Source: Flavobacterium gillisiae
GTDB lineage: Bacteria > Bacteroidota > Bacteroidia > Flavobacteriales > Flavobacteriaceae
DNA length: 64,000 bases
Reading direction: 5' to 3'
NCBI RefSeq assembly: GCF_900107635.1
Contig: NZ_FNRD01000003.1
Span: forward strand, 248,001 to 312,000
A program made the position numbers and the translations under genes. The notes under the pieces were generated by a model, which was given only the letters and a program-made list of their open reading frames with translations, searched no databases and was not told the DNA's origin. Below, one piece after another: positions 29,471 through 39,391 of this stretch (position 1 is the stretch's first letter; each line of letters starts with the position of its first letter).

Positions 29471-29498
29471 TTGATTTTTATAAAAAGCTGTATTTTTG
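29471..29498 (+). promoter_or_regulatory. Promoter of the threonine operon leader
   Basis: TTG at 29471-29473, 17-bp spacer, then TATTTTTG at 29491-29498. This is a full match to the flavobacterial TTG-N17-23-TAnnTTTG promoter. Transcription should begin near 29504, only a few bases before the leader ATG. Confidence 0.75.
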
Positions 29499-29508
29499 GA
29501 AAATAATA

Positions 29509-29613
29509 ATGACAAATAACAGAACAACATATCAATCTTCGATAACAACTCAAATTTGGGTTGCAACTTCTGTTACTTCTACATTTACAGCTACAACAAC
29601 TACTACCCCTTAG
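29509..29613 (+). CDS. thrL: Threonine operon leader peptide
   Basis: A 34-codon reading frame (ATG 29509, TAG 29611-29613) that starts right after a perfect promoter. Fourteen of 34 residues are Thr, ending ATTTTTP before the stop, with two Ile and two Val. The five consecutive Thr codons (29593-29607) lie against an inverted repeat TACCCC/GGGGTA that spans the stop codon. This is the design of a ribosome-stalling attenuator: when charged tRNA-Thr is scarce, the ribosome stops in the Thr run and alters folding of the RNA before thrA, 108 bp downstream. Thr-rich leaders are known for enterobacterial thr operons, but the sequence here is unrelated to E. coli thrL, so the symbol is by analogy. 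Confidence 0.85.
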   Translation: MTNNRTTYQSSITTQIWVATSVTSTFTATTTTTP

Positions 29614-29662
29614 GGGTATACATTTTACATATAATCCTATTTTATATTTTTCTTTTTTTAAG
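29602..29662 (+). promoter_or_regulatory. Attenuator structure of the thr operon
   Basis: Two mutually exclusive pairings share AGGGGTA. Pairing one is TACCCC (29604-29609) with GGGGTA (29613-29618), which uses the Thr/Pro codons and stop. Pairing two is AGGGGTATA (from 29612) with TATAATCCT (29630-29638), which is followed by the T-rich stretch 29640-29659. The second resembles a weak terminator. Which state terminates needs a folding calculation. Confidence 0.55.
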
Positions 29663-29721
29663 AAGGAAAGATTTTAGGTGGGTAAATAGCATTGCCATTT
29701 TTCTAAAATAAAACAAACACA

Positions 29722-32169
29722 ATGAAAGTATTAAAATTTGGCGGAACTTCGGTAGCCAATGCACAAAATATAAAACTAGTCCTTGAGATAGTTCAAAACC
29801 AAGCAAAACAAGACCAATTAATCGTAGTTGTATCTGCCCTTAGTAAAGTAACTGATCTACTTCAGTTGGCTTCATTAAGAGCCGCTTCTAATGATGAAAG
29901 CTACAAGGAAATTGTGGCTGATATTGAGAAAAAACATTTAGATGCTGTAAAAGAATTGATTCCTGTAAGCGAGCAAAGTAGCTTACTAAGTCATATCAAA
30001 CGCATCATCAATCATCTAGAAACTTTATTAGACGGTTGTTACCTTCTAGGAGAACTATCAAATAGAACTGCTGACACTATTTTGAGTTTTGGAGAATTGC
30101 TTTCTTCTTATATCATCGCTGAGGCACTTAAACAAGATTTTAAAAGCAGTAATTATAAAGACAGCCGTGAGTTAATTAAAACCAACAATAATTTTGGAAA
30201 AGCTGCCGTAAATTTCAAAGTTACTGATGAATTAATTGTTGCTTTTTTTGCCTCGAATGAAAGTCAGGTGGTTGTAATGCCTGGTTTTATTTCGTCTTCT
30301 ATTGATGGAATCAACACTACTTTAGGACGTGGTGGATCAGATTATACCGCTGCAATACTAGCTGGAGCATTAGACGCGACTGATTTAGAAATCTGGACTG
30401 ATGTCAACGGTATGTTTACGGCTAACCCGAAAATCGTAAAACAAGCCCAACCAATTGCTTCTATATCGTATCAAGAAGCGATGGAGTTGTCTCATTTTGG
30501 TGCCAAAGTGTTGTTTCCACCCACTATTCAGCCAGTTCTAAGAAAAAATATTCCTATTCATATCAAGAATACTTTCGAACCAAAAGCAGAGGGAACTTAT
30601 ATTTCTAATCAATCTATTTCTAATGGTCAGCCTGTAAAAGGAATCAGCCATATTGAAAACATCACATTGATCACACTTGAAGGTCCAGGAATGATTGGAG
30701 TATCTGGTTCGTCAAAAAGACTTTTTGAAGTTTTATCTCTTGAAGAAATCAATGTTATCTTTATTACTCAAGCTTCTTCCGAACACTCTATTTGCATTGG
30801 AATTCTAAATGAAGATGCCGAAGCCGCCGAAGCTGCAATCAACAAAGCCTTTGAAATCGAGATTTTGCAACACAAAGTAGATCCTTGTATCGTAGAAAAA
30901 AATCTATGTATTATTGCTTTAGTTGGCGAAAACATGAAAAACCACCAAGGATTGAGCGGTAAAATGTTCAGTACTTTAGGAAAAAACAATGTCAACATTC
31001 GTGCGATTGCCCAAGGTGCTTCTGAAAGAAACATATCAGCAGTAATCAATCAAAGAGATGTAAAAAAAGCATTGAATACACTTCACGAACGTTTCTTTGA
31101 AGACAATACAAAACAGTTGAATTTGTTTGTTATGGGTGTTGGTAATGTAGGTGAGAAATTCATCGATCAGATCAACCAACAAAAGAAGTTCCTAAAAGAA
31201 AACTTAAAAATAAATCTTCGTGTAATCGCTTTGTCTAATTCACGCAAAATGATTTTTGATGAAGATGGAATTGACTTAAAAGCATGGCAACCTCTTATCG
31301 AAAAAGGAGATGCTGCGGACCAACAATTGTTTATTAACAAAGTAAAAGAGCTGAATTTACGTAATAGTATTTTTGTGGATATCACGGCAAACGAAGGTGT
31401 TTCTAAAACATACGAGCATTTCTTAAGACAAAGTGTAGCCGTTGTAACTTGTAATAAAATCGCCTGCTCTTCTGCTTTTGAAAATTATAAAAATCTTAAA
31501 ACTTTATCCCGAAGATACAATGCCCCTTTCTTGTTTGAAACAAATGTTGGAGCAGGATTACCTATCATTGACACAGTTAAAAATCTAGTCGCATCAGGAG
31601 ATAAAGTCAACAAAATTCAAGCTGTTTTATCTGGTAGTTTAAACTTTATCTTTAATAATTTTGATGAAAATAACGCTTTCAATGAAGTAGTAAAAGAAGC
31701 TGGTGTTCAAGGATTTACAGAGCCTGACCCAAAGATAGATTTGAGCGGAATTGATGTCGCCAGAAAGATTCTAATTTTGATTCGCGAGAGTGGTTACGAA
31801 ATGGAAATTGAAGAAATTGAAAATCAATCTTTCCTTCCTGCTGCTTGTATGGAAACTACAAATAATGAAGATTTCTTTAAATCTCTTGTAGAACATGCTG
31901 CTCATTTTGAAGGTATTTTGGCGGAAGCTAACGCCAAAGAAAGTCGCCTAAAATTTGTTGCTCAATTTGAAAATGGTAATGCTAGTGTCGGTTTGCAATT
32001 CATCCCAAAAGACCATCCTTTTTACAACTTAGAAGGAAAAGACAATATTGTATTATTCTATACAGATCGTTATGTTGACCAACCTTTATTGATAAAAGGT
32101 GCAGGTGCCGGAGCTGCAGTTACTGCTTCAGGAATTTTTGCCGATGTGATTCGAATTGGAAACGTATAG
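29722..32169 (+). CDS. thrA: Bifunctional aspartokinase / homoserine dehydrogenase
   Basis: An 815-residue fusion catalysing the first and third steps from aspartate to threonine. The aspartokinase part (about 1-290) starts with MKVLKFGGTSVAN and carries the TTLGRGGSDYTA site. Two ACT domains follow (about 305-460, ITLEGPGMIGVSG and IALVGENMKNHQGLSG), the usual place for Thr feedback binding. The homoserine dehydrogenase part (about 465-815) has the NAD(P)-binding FVMGVGNVGEKFI, and ETNVGAGLPIIDTV and GFTEPDPKIDLSGIDVARK. First gene of thrA-thrB-thrC, under a Thr-rich leader. Confidence 0.96.
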   Translation: MKVLKFGGTSVANAQNIKLVLEIVQNQAKQDQLIVVVSALSKVTDLLQLASLRAASNDESYKEIVADIEKKHLDAVKELIPVSEQSSLLSHIKRIINHLETLLDGCYLLGELSNRTADTILSFGELLSSYIIAEALKQDFKSSNYKDSRELIKTNNNFGKAAVNFKVTDELIVAFFASNESQVVVMPGFISSSIDGINTTLGRGGSDYTAAILAGALDATDLEIWTDVNGMFTANPKIVKQAQPIASISYQEAMELSHFGAKVLFPPTIQPVLRKNIPIHIKNTFEPKAEGTYISNQSISNGQPVKGISHIENITLITLEGPGMIGVSGSSKRLFEVLSLEEINVIFITQASSEHSICIGILNEDAEAAEAAINKAFEIEILQHKVDPCIVEKNLCIIALVGENMKNHQGLSGKMFSTLGKNNVNIRAIAQGASERNISAVINQRDVKKALNTLHERFFEDNTKQLNLFVMGVGNVGEKFIDQINQQKKFLKENLKINLRVIALSNSRKMIFDEDGIDLKAWQPLIEKGDAADQQLFINKVKELNLRNSIFVDITANEGVSKTYEHFLRQSVAVVTCNKIACSSAFENYKNLKTLSRRYNAPFLFETNVGAGLPIIDTVKNLVASGDKVNKIQAVLSGSLNFIFNNFDENNAFNEVVKEAGVQGFTEPDPKIDLSGIDVARKILILIRESGYEMEIEEIENQSFLPAACMETTNNEDFFKSLVEHAAHFEGILAEANAKESRLKFVAQFENGNASVGLQFIPKDHPFYNLEGKDNIVLFYTDRYVDQPLLIKGAGAGAAVTASGIFADVIRIGNV

Positions 32170-32207: not shown

Positions 32208-33128
32208 ATGAACGAAATAAAAATATTCTGTCCCGCTACAATTGCTAATCTATCCTGTGGATTTGATGTACTCGGTCTTTGCTTAGACAATGTGGGGGAC
32301 GAAATGATTATTAGAAAATCAGATCAAAAGGGGATTCGCATCACTAAATTAGTCGGTGCCGATTTACCCTTAGAAACGGAGAAAAATGTGGCTGGAGTTG
32401 CTGCTTTGGCAATGCTCGAAGCTTTGAAATCAGACGCGGGATTCGAAATCGAAATATACAAAAACATCAAAGCCGGTAGCGGAATCGGAAGCAGTGCTGC
32501 CAGCTCTGCAGGAGCGGTTTTTGGAATCAATGAATTGCTTGGTCGCCCTTTTGAAATAAAAGACTTGGTGCAATTTGCTATGCAAGGCGAAAAACTAGCT
32601 TGCGGAAACGCTCATGCCGACAACGTTGCTCCTGCCCTATTGGGTGGATTTACATTAGTGCGAAGCTACAGTCCTTTAGATATTATAAAAATAGAAAGTC
32701 CATCAGAATTGTATGCGACGGTAGTTCATCCTCAGATTGAACTTAAAACATCCGATGCTCGTTCCGTATTAAAGCAAACGGTTTCCCTAAAAAGCGCAAT
32801 TATGCAATGGGGAAATGTGGGCGGATTAATTGCCGGTTTATATACTAAGGATTATGACTTGATAGGCCGCTCGCTACATGACGAAATCGTGGAGCCGTTG
32901 CGTTCTGTATTAATTCCTGGTTTTGACTTAATCAAACAAACCGCATTAGAAAACGGTGCTCTAGGATCTGGAATATCAGGTTCTGGCCCTTCTATTTTTG
33001 CTTTAAGCAAAGGAAGAGACGCCGCCGACAAAATCGCCAAAGCCATGAGCGCAGTCTATGACGAAATGAAATTACCGTATGAAATTCACGTTTCAAAAGT
33101 GAATCCTGATGGAGTACGTATATTATAA
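32208..33128 (+). CDS. thrB: Homoserine kinase
   Basis: A 306-residue GHMP-family kinase that phosphorylates L-homoserine. The ATP-binding loop is GSGIGSSAASSAGAV at about residues 90-104. The N-terminal signature (CPATIANLSCGFDVLGLCLD) and the C-terminal GSGISGSGPSIFAL glycine-rich motif are as in ThrB. It lies between thrA and thrC, with a 38-bp gap from thrA that holds a short palindrome. Confidence 0.96.
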   Translation: MNEIKIFCPATIANLSCGFDVLGLCLDNVGDEMIIRKSDQKGIRITKLVGADLPLETEKNVAGVAALAMLEALKSDAGFEIEIYKNIKAGSGIGSSAASSAGAVFGINELLGRPFEIKDLVQFAMQGEKLACGNAHADNVAPALLGGFTLVRSYSPLDIIKIESPSELYATVVHPQIELKTSDARSVLKQTVSLKSAIMQWGNVGGLIAGLYTKDYDLIGRSLHDEIVEPLRSVLIPGFDLIKQTALENGALGSGISGSGPSIFALSKGRDAADKIAKAMSAVYDEMKLPYEIHVSKVNPDGVRIL

Positions 33129-33148: not shown

Positions 33149-33239
33149 GATTTTTGATTAACGATTTTTGATTTCAGATGTAACTTACGTTGCTAGAAAA
33201 AATCAAAAATCAAAAATCGTTAATCTTCAATCAAAAATC
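33149..33239. repeat. Large inverted repeat between thrB and thrC
   Basis: The left arm is at 33149-33173. Its inner 18 bases (33156-33173, GATTAACGATTTTTGATT) are perfectly complementary to 33208-33225; the outer part pairs with 33229-33239 after a small insertion. Loop about 34 nt. It ends 3 bp before the thrC ATG, so a folded RNA would lie next to the ribosome binding site. It could lower thrC translation or mark an inserted dispersed palindrome. Confidence 0.75.
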
Positions 33240-33242
33240 ACA

Positions 33243-34532
33243 ATGAAATACTACAGTTTAAACCATAACGCCCCAAACGTTTCCTTTCAGGAAGCAGTAA
33301 TACAAGGATTAGCTTCTGATAAAGGATTGTATTTTCCAGAAAACATAACACCACTGCCTCAGGCCTTTTTCGATACTATCGAAAATTTAAGCAATGAAGA
33401 AATTGCTTTTGAAGCTATTAAACAATTTGTAGGAGATGAAATTCCCGCTGATGTACTTAAAGAAATCATTGCTGACACCCTGTGTTTTGATTTTCCGGTG
33501 GTCGAAGTAGAGAAAGGAATTTACTCCCTTGAATTATTCCATGGCCCAACAATGGCGTTTAAGGACGTAGGAGCGCGTTTCATGTCACGATGTTTGGCCT
33601 ACTTCAATAAAGACAAAAAAGACAGTAAGAACACCGTTCTTGTTGCTACTTCCGGAGATACCGGTGGTGCAGTTGCAAGCGGGTTTCTAGGTGTTGCTGG
33701 CGTAGAAGTGATCATTTTATATCCTTCTGGAAAAGTGAGCGACATTCAGGAAAAACAGCTTACGACTTTAGGTCAAAACATTAAAGCACTCGAAGTAGAT
33801 GGTGTTTTTGATGATTGTCAAGACATGGTTAAAAAAGCTTTCTTAGACGATAGTTTAAAGCATCATAATCTAACTTCGGCAAATTCGATTAATATCGCAC
33901 GGTGGTTGCCGCAAATGTTTTACTTTTTCTTTGCTTACAAGGAATTGAAGAAGCAAAATAAGGAATTGGTATTCTCTTGCCCGAGTGGGAATTTCGGAAA
34001 TATCTGCGCCGGAATCATGGCAAAAAAGTTAGGCTTGCCCCTACTTCATTTTGTGGCTTCCACCAATGTAAATGATACAGTGCCCCGATTTTTAGCAAGT
34101 GGATTTTATGATCCTAAACCATCCAAAGCAACGATTTCTAATGCGATGGATGTTGGGAATCCAAGTAATTTCATTCGAATTCAGGAAATGTACCACAACG
34201 ATTTGGCCCAATTCAAGAAAGACTTCTCTTCTTATACTTTTACAGATGAAGAAACAACTGAGGCGATGAAAACTATTTATAACACAAACGGCTATATCGC
34301 TGAACCGCATGGTGCCGTGGGTTATTTAGGATTGAAAAAAGAATTGCATAACTATCCAAATGCTATTGGTATTTTCCTTGAAACTGCACATCCTATTAAA
34401 TTTTTGGACGTTGTGGAACCAGCTTTAAATGTAAAATTACCGATTCCTGCACAAATAGAAAGTGTGATGGATAAAGAAAAAGTAAGCACTAAAATTAAAA
34501 CATACGAAGAGTTGAAAGCTTTTTTAGGATAA
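33243..34532 (+). CDS. thrC: Threonine synthase
   Basis: A PLP enzyme of 429 residues from the chosen ATG that turns O-phosphohomoserine into threonine. The PLP lysine lies in GPTMAFKDVGARFMSR, the phosphate-binding part in VATSGDTGGAVASGF, and CPSGNFGNICAG is also typical. The frame opens upstream at 33168, but that extension is translated from the inverted repeat and has no protein-like character; the MKYYSLNHNAPNVSFQEAV start matches the family N-terminus. Last gene of the thr operon, followed by a strong terminator. Confidence 0.95.
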   Translation: MKYYSLNHNAPNVSFQEAVIQGLASDKGLYFPENITPLPQAFFDTIENLSNEEIAFEAIKQFVGDEIPADVLKEIIADTLCFDFPVVEVEKGIYSLELFHGPTMAFKDVGARFMSRCLAYFNKDKKDSKNTVLVATSGDTGGAVASGFLGVAGVEVIILYPSGKVSDIQEKQLTTLGQNIKALEVDGVFDDCQDMVKKAFLDDSLKHHNLTSANSINIARWLPQMFYFFFAYKELKKQNKELVFSCPSGNFGNICAGIMAKKLGLPLLHFVASTNVNDTVPRFLASGFYDPKPSKATISNAMDVGNPSNFIRIQEMYHNDLAQFKKDFSSYTFTDEETTEAMKTIYNTNGYIAEPHGAVGYLGLKKELHNYPNAIGIFLETAHPIKFLDVVEPALNVKLPIPAQIESVMDKEKVSTKIKTYEELKAFLG

Positions 34533-36940: not shown

Positions 36941-39391
36941 TTAGTCTTTGAAGTATTTAAAAATCAAAAGTTTCAATTCTTCCACTTTTAAAGGCTTTGA
37001 AATATAATCATTACAATTTGCATCAATTGCTCTTTCCATATCTCCAACTAAAGCGTATGCGGTTTGTGCAATTATAATTACCTCTTTATTGAATTTTCGT
37101 ATCTCTCTGGCCGCTTCATGACCATCCATTATTGGCATCTGAATATCCATAAATACCAAATCTATATCCGGATTATTACGACACGCTTCTACTGCTTCTA
37201 ATCCGTTTCTTGTATTGATAATTTCACTCCCGTATTCTTTAATGACTTTCGAAATAAGCTTTTCTGATATTGCATCATCTTCGGCAATAACTATTTTTAG
37301 CTTTTTACTAAAGCCTGTTCTAACTGGTGATACAATTTCGCTACTAATTGTTTTCTCAATACTCAGGTCCTGTATAAACGGAAGCGTAAAATAAAATACC
37401 GTTCCTTCTCCTTCCTCAGACTTAAGCCTTATTGATCCTCCCAAAATTTCTACATAGGCTTTAGAAATAGACAATCCTAAACCAGCGCCTTGCAACGCCA
37501 TCTTATTGGCAATATCAGCCTGAATAAATCGTTCAAAAATTGCTTCTTGTCGGTCTTTTGGCACCCCAATTCCGGTGTCTTTTACATAAAATTCAAGAAA
37601 GTCATCCTTTATCGTATAACCAAATTCTACACTTCCTTTTTCGGTATGATTGATCGCATTTTTCACCAAATTTGTCAATATTGCAAATACTTTTTCACGG
37701 TCAGTTGTTATGAAGGCTTCATTAGAAGGCAAAGTATGTTTATAGGATAGCTGAACACCTTTTTTTTCTGCCTCTGGAATGAAGAAAGTATAGATGTATT
37801 CTAATTGTTCATTAATATTCGATTTCTGAAGATGAACTTCCATTTGTCCGGACTCAATTTTCGAAATATTAATAATATCATTGATAATATTGAGCATTCT
37901 TAACCCACTTTTTTCAATAATCTTAATGTACTTTCGCTGCTTTTTCCCTTTAAGATTGGGCTCTTTTAACAATTCTGCAAAACCTAAAATACCGTTCATA
38001 GGCGTACGTATTTCGTGACTCATATTAGCAAGAAAAGCTGATTTTAAACGATCTGATTCTTCTGCCTTTTCTTTAGCAATATTAAGGTCTATCTCTAATT
38101 GTTTCCTTTCGCTAATATCAAATTCTATCCCATCCCAGCAAACCAATCCACCAATGATTCTAGGCTTTGCTATAGAATAAGCCCATCTAATACTTCCGTC
38201 TGGATTTATTACTCGGACTTCTACGACATAATTAGACATATTGTGTATTGCCTTTAATTCTGCGACTCTCATGATTTCTATGTCGTCAGGATGAATCCTT
38301 CTGTAAATTAAGCTAGCATCCTCAATTACTTCAGCTGCCGTGCATCCGTAAAGTTTAACAACGCCATCACTCACATAATTAAATTTTCTTCTGTTATCAT
38401 CGAGCGTAACTATCTGGTAAATCATACCGTTTACTAGATTATCCGCAATTAATTTTAATTGGTTTTCGTTTTCTCCGGCTTTTTCTTTTGCTTTAAAGAG
38501 CTCTTCAGTTCTTACTTTTACCCTTTGTCTTAGTAATAATACAAAAACTAATGAAAGAATTAAAACTATAAAAACGACAAGAACAAACCACTTTATATAA
38601 CTAGGGACTAGCAATTTAGCATCCTTCTCTAACCAGTGAAATAATGACTTATAATATTTAGAACTAGCATCATTTTTTAATTCAGAGATATTTCTATCGA
38701 ATAATTCAACCATCGCAGCATTTTTATTTTTTGTAAATGCAAAATGCAATCCTAATGGTCTAATTAAGATTCCCGTTGGTTTTATAGTCTTGTCAAATAA
38801 GTTTGAAAAAGTAAAAAAGCGATCGGCTATGATTACATCAATTTTACTGCTTTTAAGATCATTAACACATTGTTTATAACTATCATACGTATAAAGCTTA
38901 TAAGTAATATCAAACTCCTTAGAAACAAAATCTGTCATGTATCTCTCTTCGATAGAACCTTTTAAAACACCTACTTTCAGGTTTTTTAAATCCAATATTG
39001 AATGTAAATTCAATTCCTTTCTAGAAAACAATTCTGCCCACGAACTTAGTACAGGTAATTTACTTAAGGTAAAAATAGAATCTCGCTCTGCTGAAAATAC
39101 TACATCGGGTAACATATCAATTTCACCAGTTTGCAACTTTTTATAAAGATTGTCCCAAGTGTTAAACTCGTATTCAAATTTCAAGTTTTCCCTTTCCCCA
39201 ATTTCTTTAATAATATCAATAAAAAAACCATCGGGTTGTCCGTTCTTATTCAGAAATATTTTTGGAGGATTATCATACACTCCTACTTTTATAACCTTAC
39301 CGCTATTATTTTGTGAAAAAATCGTTCCAGAAACCCCAGAACAAATTAGAATCAAGAGAAACGTATAATAACTATATGTGTAATTTTTCAT
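36941..39391 (-). CDS. Hybrid sensor histidine kinase with periplasmic solute-binding domain
   Basis: An 816-residue membrane kinase. Order: signal peptide, SBP_bac_3-like solute-binding domain (about 33-250, VIKVGVYDNPPKIFLNKNG), transmembrane segment (about 263-288), PAS domain with PAC (about 305-430), HisKA with His459 in SHEIRTPMNGILGF, HATPase_c (VKDTGIGVPKDRQEAIFERF and GAGLGLSISK), and a C-terminal receiver with Asp749 in VFMDIQMPIMDG. A periplasmic ligand is probably sensed, as in EvgS/BvgS-type kinases. No DNA-binding output domain and no adjacent response regulator are seen, so the phosphate must leave via a distant partner. Confidence 0.92.
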   Translation of the reverse strand: MKNYTYSYYTFLLILICSGVSGTIFSQNNSGKVIKVGVYDNPPKIFLNKNGQPDGFFIDIIKEIGERENLKFEYEFNTWDNLYKKLQTGEIDMLPDVVFSAERDSIFTLSKLPVLSSWAELFSRKELNLHSILDLKNLKVGVLKGSIEERYMTDFVSKEFDITYKLYTYDSYKQCVNDLKSSKIDVIIADRFFTFSNLFDKTIKPTGILIRPLGLHFAFTKNKNAAMVELFDRNISELKNDASSKYYKSLFHWLEKDAKLLVPSYIKWFVLVVFIVLILSLVFVLLLRQRVKVRTEELFKAKEKAGENENQLKLIADNLVNGMIYQIVTLDDNRRKFNYVSDGVVKLYGCTAAEVIEDASLIYRRIHPDDIEIMRVAELKAIHNMSNYVVEVRVINPDGSIRWAYSIAKPRIIGGLVCWDGIEFDISERKQLEIDLNIAKEKAEESDRLKSAFLANMSHEIRTPMNGILGFAELLKEPNLKGKKQRKYIKIIEKSGLRMLNIINDIINISKIESGQMEVHLQKSNINEQLEYIYTFFIPEAEKKGVQLSYKHTLPSNEAFITTDREKVFAILTNLVKNAINHTEKGSVEFGYTIKDDFLEFYVKDTGIGVPKDRQEAIFERFIQADIANKMALQGAGLGLSISKAYVEILGGSIRLKSEEGEGTVFYFTLPFIQDLSIEKTISSEIVSPVRTGFSKKLKIVIAEDDAISEKLISKVIKEYGSEIINTRNGLEAVEACRNNPDIDLVFMDIQMPIMDGHEAAREIRKFNKEVIIIAQTAYALVGDMERAIDANCNDYISKPLKVEELKLLIFKYFKD

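Follow-up and report, generated by a model that had tools for sequence, protein, structure and literature searches.

Our results indicate that the threonine operon thrABC of Flavobacterium gillisiae is probably preceded by a cis-acting leader-peptide sensor of charged threonyl-tRNA that would control the operon, a reading to which we give a probability of about 0.8. The presence of a Thr-sensing leader element upstream of thrABC is well supported by sequence comparison, and from it we infer that the leader is translated, that ribosomes stall on it and in which direction control is exerted. This reading builds on a Thr-rich frame conserved throughout the genus set, on a 3' element absent upstream of paralogs, on a stop codon that lies on a hairpin (hp1), on swap tests and blind scans that favour the helices P0, hp0, hp2 and, more weakly, hp1, and on canonical terminators in the his leader of the same genome and in four Thr leaders elsewhere. 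Counted against it were a window that yielded no canonical terminator, blind scans that yielded no alternative pairing, a nonsignificant swap test for hp1 in the genus, the many P0 pairs that show no excess of pairing and the absence of the element from part of the family.

In the window, the whole stretch of 64,000 nt that was analysed, a frame of 34 codons on the plus strand (29509-29613; MTNNRTTYQSSITTQIWVATSVTSTFTATTTTTP followed by the stop codon) carries 14 Thr codons and is flanked by hutH (minus strand) and by thrA-thrB-thrC (plus strand), with gene families assigned by NCBIfam. thrA (29722-32169, plus strand) codes for the bifunctional aspartate kinase/homoserine dehydrogenase I (NF006959, 1044 bits against a cut-off of 726) and is followed on the same strand by thrB, coding for homoserine kinase (32208-33128; TIGR00191, NF002288), and thrC, coding for threonine synthase (33168-34532; TIGR00260). 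The nearest named thrA, 98% identical, is that of F. frigoris DSM 15719. The genome also holds a second fused aspartate kinase/homoserine dehydrogenase gene (G000:C8:68150-70549, upstream stretch L193), which is 36% identical and has no Thr leader, and the strict pattern for the leader element matched this genome once, at the thr leader itself. No leader was seen by eye upstream of ilvD, where another gene ends shortly upstream.

The frame was already reported in a preliminary description of this DNA and can be read directly in the sequence. That it is a Thr-rich frame produced by chance can practically be dismissed: it is conserved at 81 of 81 loci, an ORF with 14 Thr codons appeared in none of 1000 dinucleotide shuffles of the intergenic region (maximum 9), and the runner-up among the 625 window ORFs of 20-60 aa has 8 Thr in 42 residues compared with 14 in 34 for the leader. 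The five Thr codons in a row, presumed to be the sensing codons, were also described correctly (ACA ACA ACT ACT ACC, 29593-29607, plus strand), but they do not directly precede the stop codon, since one Pro codon lies between.

The leader promoter, as read from the sequence (29471-29498, plus strand), consists of TTG at 29471-29473, a spacer of 17 nt and the box TATTTTTG at 29491-29498, with the leader ATG 10 nt past the box. The TTG-N17-TAnnTTTG promoter claimed earlier is therefore present, and so is the short distance between promoter and frame: the -7 box TAnnTTTG was found at all 81 genus-set loci, 6-11 nt ahead of the leader ATG, with TTG placed 16-20 nt from it at only 33 of the 81. Transcription would start a few bases ahead of this ATG. 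Promoter-like boxes, sought with a loose pattern, also occur between hp2 and thrA in 13 of 28 loci with a long spacer and 13 of 53 with a short one. An additional segment of some 80 nt, in which AACCTTTG/AATCTTTG boxes recur, lies between hp2 and thrA at L087, L089, L090, L092, L095 and L096, and likewise at L098, L102, L103, L110, L112 and L118; to judge from their sequence, these boxes look like a second promoter 3' of the leader, which would bypass it.

Conservation was followed in a genus set made of the window and the best 80 of 330 relatives by thrA, which leans to near relatives and whose loci are nearly all labelled Flavobacterium or Flavobacteriaceae. The enrichment of Thr codons that the preliminary description proposed to look for in relatives was found, as a Thr-rich frame lies upstream of thrA at 81 of 81 loci. 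The 3' element, defined as CCC, a short loop, GGG, a spacer and [CT]ATAT, was likewise present at 81 of 81, and among hand-picked loci it was found at 17 of 20 divergent ones of the genus and at none of 15 upstream of the paralog, which is 36-38% identical. Reversed sequences, used as a control, gave 1 match in 231; four further loci of the genus (L231-L234) do not enter these counts. Elsewhere in the family the element was found in 47 of 74 genera, with 27 of 74 lacking it by the pattern used; some of the loci missed carry variants of the element and others have no visible leader. The search of the order gave 6 of 19, that is, 5 of 17 outside the family (the match L235 and the miss L236 belong to the family), and 7 of the 12 misses come from a single genus with genomes of about 0.6 Mb. 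The phylum search gave 6 of 22, these being the best 22 outside the order among 74 genomes with a match. Of 100 family genomes, 13 gave matches to a looser pattern, at thrA in 12 and at other places in 3 (G206, G157, G121), as assigned by comparison of coordinates; its reversed form, again as a control, gave 3 matches, equal to the number away from thrA. Two loci labelled as Klebsiella pneumoniae (L081) and Lentimicrobium (L077) are contigs with thrA and leader of Flavobacterium type, probably metagenome contigs that were wrongly binned.

Leaders of the genus set have a mean of 11.1 Thr, or 34% of residues, and among 79 unique leaders several columns are more than 90% Thr with varying third positions (column 23 has ACA in 33, ACT in 16, ACC in 14 and ACG in 9). 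In the last 16 codons ahead of the stop, mean Thr is 7.8 and Thr+Ile 9.1 in the genus set, compared with 5.4 and 7.4 in the other sequences. It could be argued that the ORF encodes a functional small protein and is not a sensor, as the genus set shows recognisable conservation in the peptide's first half, but that conservation coincides with the helices P0 and hp0, the peptide matches no Pfam or NCBIfam family at E 0.001, and codon differences over all columns are nonsynonymous to synonymous at 37,491:12,262, about 3 to 1 and about as for unconstrained codons. A small protein is thus highly improbable. The conservation of Thr together with the pattern of codon differences fits sensing of Thr, and perhaps also of Ile, over a functional peptide.

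The whole leader folds better than shuffles (z -3.5), and its helices were examined by swap tests, which trade one arm for its counterpart in another species and compare cognate with swapped pairing, and by blind scans of pairs of 12-nt windows (511 pairs, then 681 over a longer stretch that reaches the 5' arm of P0); both ignore the shared ancestry of the sequences. Swap tests outside the genus leave out loci with odd spacing (L120, L157, L158, L168, L169 and L185), single tests also dropped loci with short upstream sequence, duplicate arms or hairpins of fewer than 4 pairs, and a test labelled H5:H3 was set aside as circular because its arms had been picked for pairing. Two of the helices lie inside the ORF. 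P0 (29517-29524 with 29568-29575, spanning 29517-29575, plus strand), a helix of the MFE fold, encloses hp0, and its swap test on 79 unique leaders favoured cognate arms (z -5.4, p 2e-4); in the genus blind scan of 681 pairs its windows take second and third place, next to the adjoining first pair (c-96:c-48). This support comes mainly from the pair 29523:29569, which joins a third codon position with a first one, reads CG in 37 of the 79 leaders and AT in 24, and is paired in 64 compared with 39 expected; several other P0 pairs are no commoner than independent columns would give. The hairpin hp0 (CAACTCA-AATT-TGGGTTG, 29546-29563, plus strand) gave z -6.6 and p 2e-4 in 64 unique genus sequences, and its windows rank second in both blind scans outside the genus (511 and 681 pairs) and are weak within it. 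Single folds of the outsiders L119, L122, L133, L136 and L141 show a nested helix pair like P0/hp0 made of other sequences.

Around the stop codon, the TACCCC (29604-29609) and GGGGTA (29613-29618) repeats that had been noted earlier are present and form hp1 (TACCCC-TTA-GGGGTA, 29604-29618, plus strand; -6.4 kcal/mol), with the stop codon TAG beginning in its loop. The overlap of the Thr run with one arm, here the 5' arm of this conserved stem, was also described correctly. Five pairs of hp1 are kept in 80 of 80 aligned sequences, and hp1 is the only helix that RNAalifold returned from this alignment of 80 rows, from which L115, a duplicate, was left out. Cognate arms beat swapped ones outside the genus (p 0.002, 13-nt arms), while the genus result was not significant (p 0.06) and a 22-nt arm gave z -1.5 and -1.7. 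The stop codon begins -4 to +8 nt from the first G of hp1 at 80 of 81 genus-set loci and 70 of 76 others (150 of 157), and therefore a ribosome at the stop codon would nearly always be on hp1.

Downstream of hp1 the motif CATATAATCC, of CATAT type and conserved as a pattern (29628-29637, plus strand), begins 11 nt past GGGG. The spacing between GGGG and the motif is 10-13 nt at all 81 genus-set loci, 10-12 nt in 17 of 17 divergent genus matches and 9-13 nt in the 12 order and phylum matches; in the family it is scattered, with 8 nt the commonest (19 of 47). Hairpin-stabilised pauses of RNA polymerase have their hairpin about 11 nt ahead of the RNA end, and since the near-fixed distance between hp1 and CATAT in the genus recalls such pauses, the motif is a possible pause site by analogy. 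After it comes hp2 (CCTATTT...AGGTGGG, 29636-29682, plus strand), a folded hairpin with an inner 12-bp stem (29646-29657 with 29661-29672), an energy of -14.2 kcal/mol in the window and no U-tract. Its mean fold z is -1.65 in both the genus and outside sets, its windows rank first in both blind scans outside the genus, with a t of only -2.2 within it, and it is conserved more in structure than in sequence. The preliminary description had the hp1 repeats but missed P0 and hp0 inside the ORF and hp2 after the motif. Stray signals without explanation were the genus pairing O:G (z -3.6), H5:Z outside the genus (z -4.2) and c-48:m40 in the genus (t -3.7 and -4.1 in the two blind scans).

A scan for a hairpin with a U-tract found no canonical terminator in the window, where the best candidate reached only -2.6 kcal/mol; run as a positive control on the his leader of this genome, the same scan recovered its terminator of -17.4 kcal/mol. 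Its 10 matches among the 81 genus-set loci are 9 cases of hp1 with a poor U-tract and one of hp2 (L059), and at least 6 U in the 8 nt after hp2 were found in 0 of 81 genus-set loci and 4 of 62 other sequences. Matches among element loci outside the genus set are again hp1 (L123, L178, L181, L195 and L235). Loci without the element gave matches in the family (L180, L186, the hp1-like L187 and L192) and farther out (L265, L270, L272 and L275), and the paralog locus L216 gave one as well. Frames rich in Thr/Ile accompany canonical terminators at L180 and L186, of the same family, and at L265 and L272, of the same class and other orders, so that the phylum seems to have two or more kinds of thr leader.

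The preliminary description recognised a Thr leader peptide of the attenuation type, which stands, but the switch it drew, with GGGGTA pairing alternatively with TATAATCCT ahead of a T-rich stretch, was not borne out. It amounts to a classical intrinsic-terminator attenuator in which the T-rich stretch would end transcription. The pairing can be drawn and the T-rich stretch does follow it, but it folds at only -2.1 to -2.6 kcal/mol, its swap test gave z -0.2 in the genus and z +4.5 outside it, where cognate arms were worse than swapped ones, and the T-rich stretch coincides with the 5' arm of hp2. The GGGG:UCC pairing, at -2.6 kcal/mol, is far weaker than hp2 at -14.2 and by itself would scarcely keep hp2 from forming. 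For a biosynthetic operon the switch would moreover run backwards, since a ribosome stalled on the Thr run frees GGGGTA and would favour the supposed terminator in starvation. We rejected this pairing as a terminator because it is weak, lacks covariation and has no intrinsic terminator behind it, and a classical attenuator of this kind is very unlikely here. Blind scans recovered no clear alternative pairing for a two-state switch, with GGGG nearly invariant and so beyond covariation.

Two further explanations concern the way in which the leader would act on thrA. One is transcription attenuation with hp2 as a weak or factor-assisted (Rho, NusG) terminator that needs no U-tract and with hp1 and CATAT as a pause site, for which we see roughly even chances. 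The conservation of hp2 as a structure more than as a sequence and the near-fixed distance of CATAT from hp1 in the genus speak for it, while the scattered spacing in the family speaks against it. An excess of C over G is typical of Rho sites, but the excess after hp2 is slight across the genus set (C 0.128, G 0.102) and larger in other genera (C 0.171, G 0.047). The other is translational or mRNA-stability control, in which transcription is not cut short and translation of the leader alters how accessible thrA is or how long the mRNA lasts. That the scan found no canonical terminator agrees with it, but the last 45 nt ahead of the ATG show no more folding than shuffled sequence (mean z -0.08 and +0.34), so that sequestration of the thrA start was not seen, and the distance from motif to thrA exceeds 110 nt at 28 of 81 loci (shorter at 53), which is easier to reconcile with transcriptional than with translational control. 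We regard this second explanation as rather unlikely.

For the sensor itself we favour the following sequence of events. Within the ORF the RNA would fold into P0 and hp0, at the stop codon into hp1 and ahead of thrA into hp2. When Thr-tRNA is plentiful, the ribosome would reach the stop codon, cover or open hp1 and be released, and hp2 would form and keep thrABC expression low. When Thr is scarce, the ribosome would stall in the Thr run and block the CCCC arm of hp1, leaving GGGG free, and expression would be high. The off-state we prefer is premature termination of transcription without a standard U-tract, possibly assisted by Rho and with a pause at the CATAT motif; termination is favoured because loci vary greatly in how far the motif lies from thrA and because no conserved fold takes in the thrA start. 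More tentatively, and at less than even odds, we propose a type of thr leader in the Bacteroidota, common to the family and perhaps to the phylum, that would couple translation of the leader to thrABC with no intrinsic terminator. In it, hp1, some 10-12 nt ahead of a conserved CATAT-type motif, would make RNA polymerase pause in a programmed way, and hp2, together with the unstructured RNA behind it, would end transcription by a route that needs no U-tract or is assisted by Rho, except where a stalled ribosome prevents this.

Attenuation by amino-acid leaders, now a textbook mechanism, was established in enterobacteria, where the thrL attenuator (Rfam Thr_leader) has a leader peptide rich in Thr/Ile codons ahead of thrABC and a Thr run that overlaps a stem. 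The Flavobacterium leader resembles thrL in its Thr-rich leader peptide directly upstream of thrABC, but it has no hairpin with a U-tract ahead of thrA and it has extra helices inside the ORF. The Rfam Thr leader gave no match in the window at the gathering threshold, above which only three tRNAs and a Flavo-1 RNA (RF01705, 42498-42577, plus strand, 79.2 bits) were found. Vitreschak and colleagues reportedly placed Bacteroidetes/Chlorobi among the taxa with candidate attenuators in 2004. Another motif, Bacteroid-trp RNA, which we take to be a Trp leader, belongs to an operon other than thr and has no match in the window; it is listed for Bacteroidetes as RF01692 (Weinberg et al. 2010, PMC2864571). 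In the same family, a study of F. psychrophilum found strong signs of attenuation by leader peptides ahead of operons for amino-acid biosynthesis, with hisG and pheA listed among its examples of structured 5' elements (Guerin et al. 2021, PMC9723704). The idea is the same, a short peptide upstream of amino-acid operons, and neither thrA nor threonine occurs in the main text of that paper, though its supplementary tables may overlap with the present finding. The his leader of the F. gillisiae genome (L229, contig C9, upstream of hisG) fits the hisG element named in that paper. Like the thr leader, it has an amino-acid run in a short frame 3' of a TAnnTTTG box, here a His-rich frame (MFTIQLHHHHFHYCSQAMC followed by the stop codon), but its canonical terminator of -17.4 kcal/mol with a U-tract has no counterpart in the thr leader. 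In the parts consulted, a map of B. thetaiotaomicron mentions short ORFs reminiscent of leader peptides (PMC7366714), and PMC4833913 and PMC6429828 name no Bacteroidetes thr leader. Our literature search, whose coverage leaves out most subscription journals, found no description of this thr leader, and the leader looks like a known kind, amino-acid leader attenuation, in an apparently undescribed variant.

Examination of this leader suggests that, in a phylum other than that of the enterobacteria, a conserved thr leader has retained its sensing portion and its stop-codon stem but apparently lacks the textbook terminator. Set beside the his leader of this genome and a few distant thr leaders, which do have such a terminator, it offers a natural comparison for control without an intrinsic terminator, set in bacteria whose leader begins a few bases behind the promoter, and it indicates a small Thr-rich ORF in many Flavobacterium genomes.
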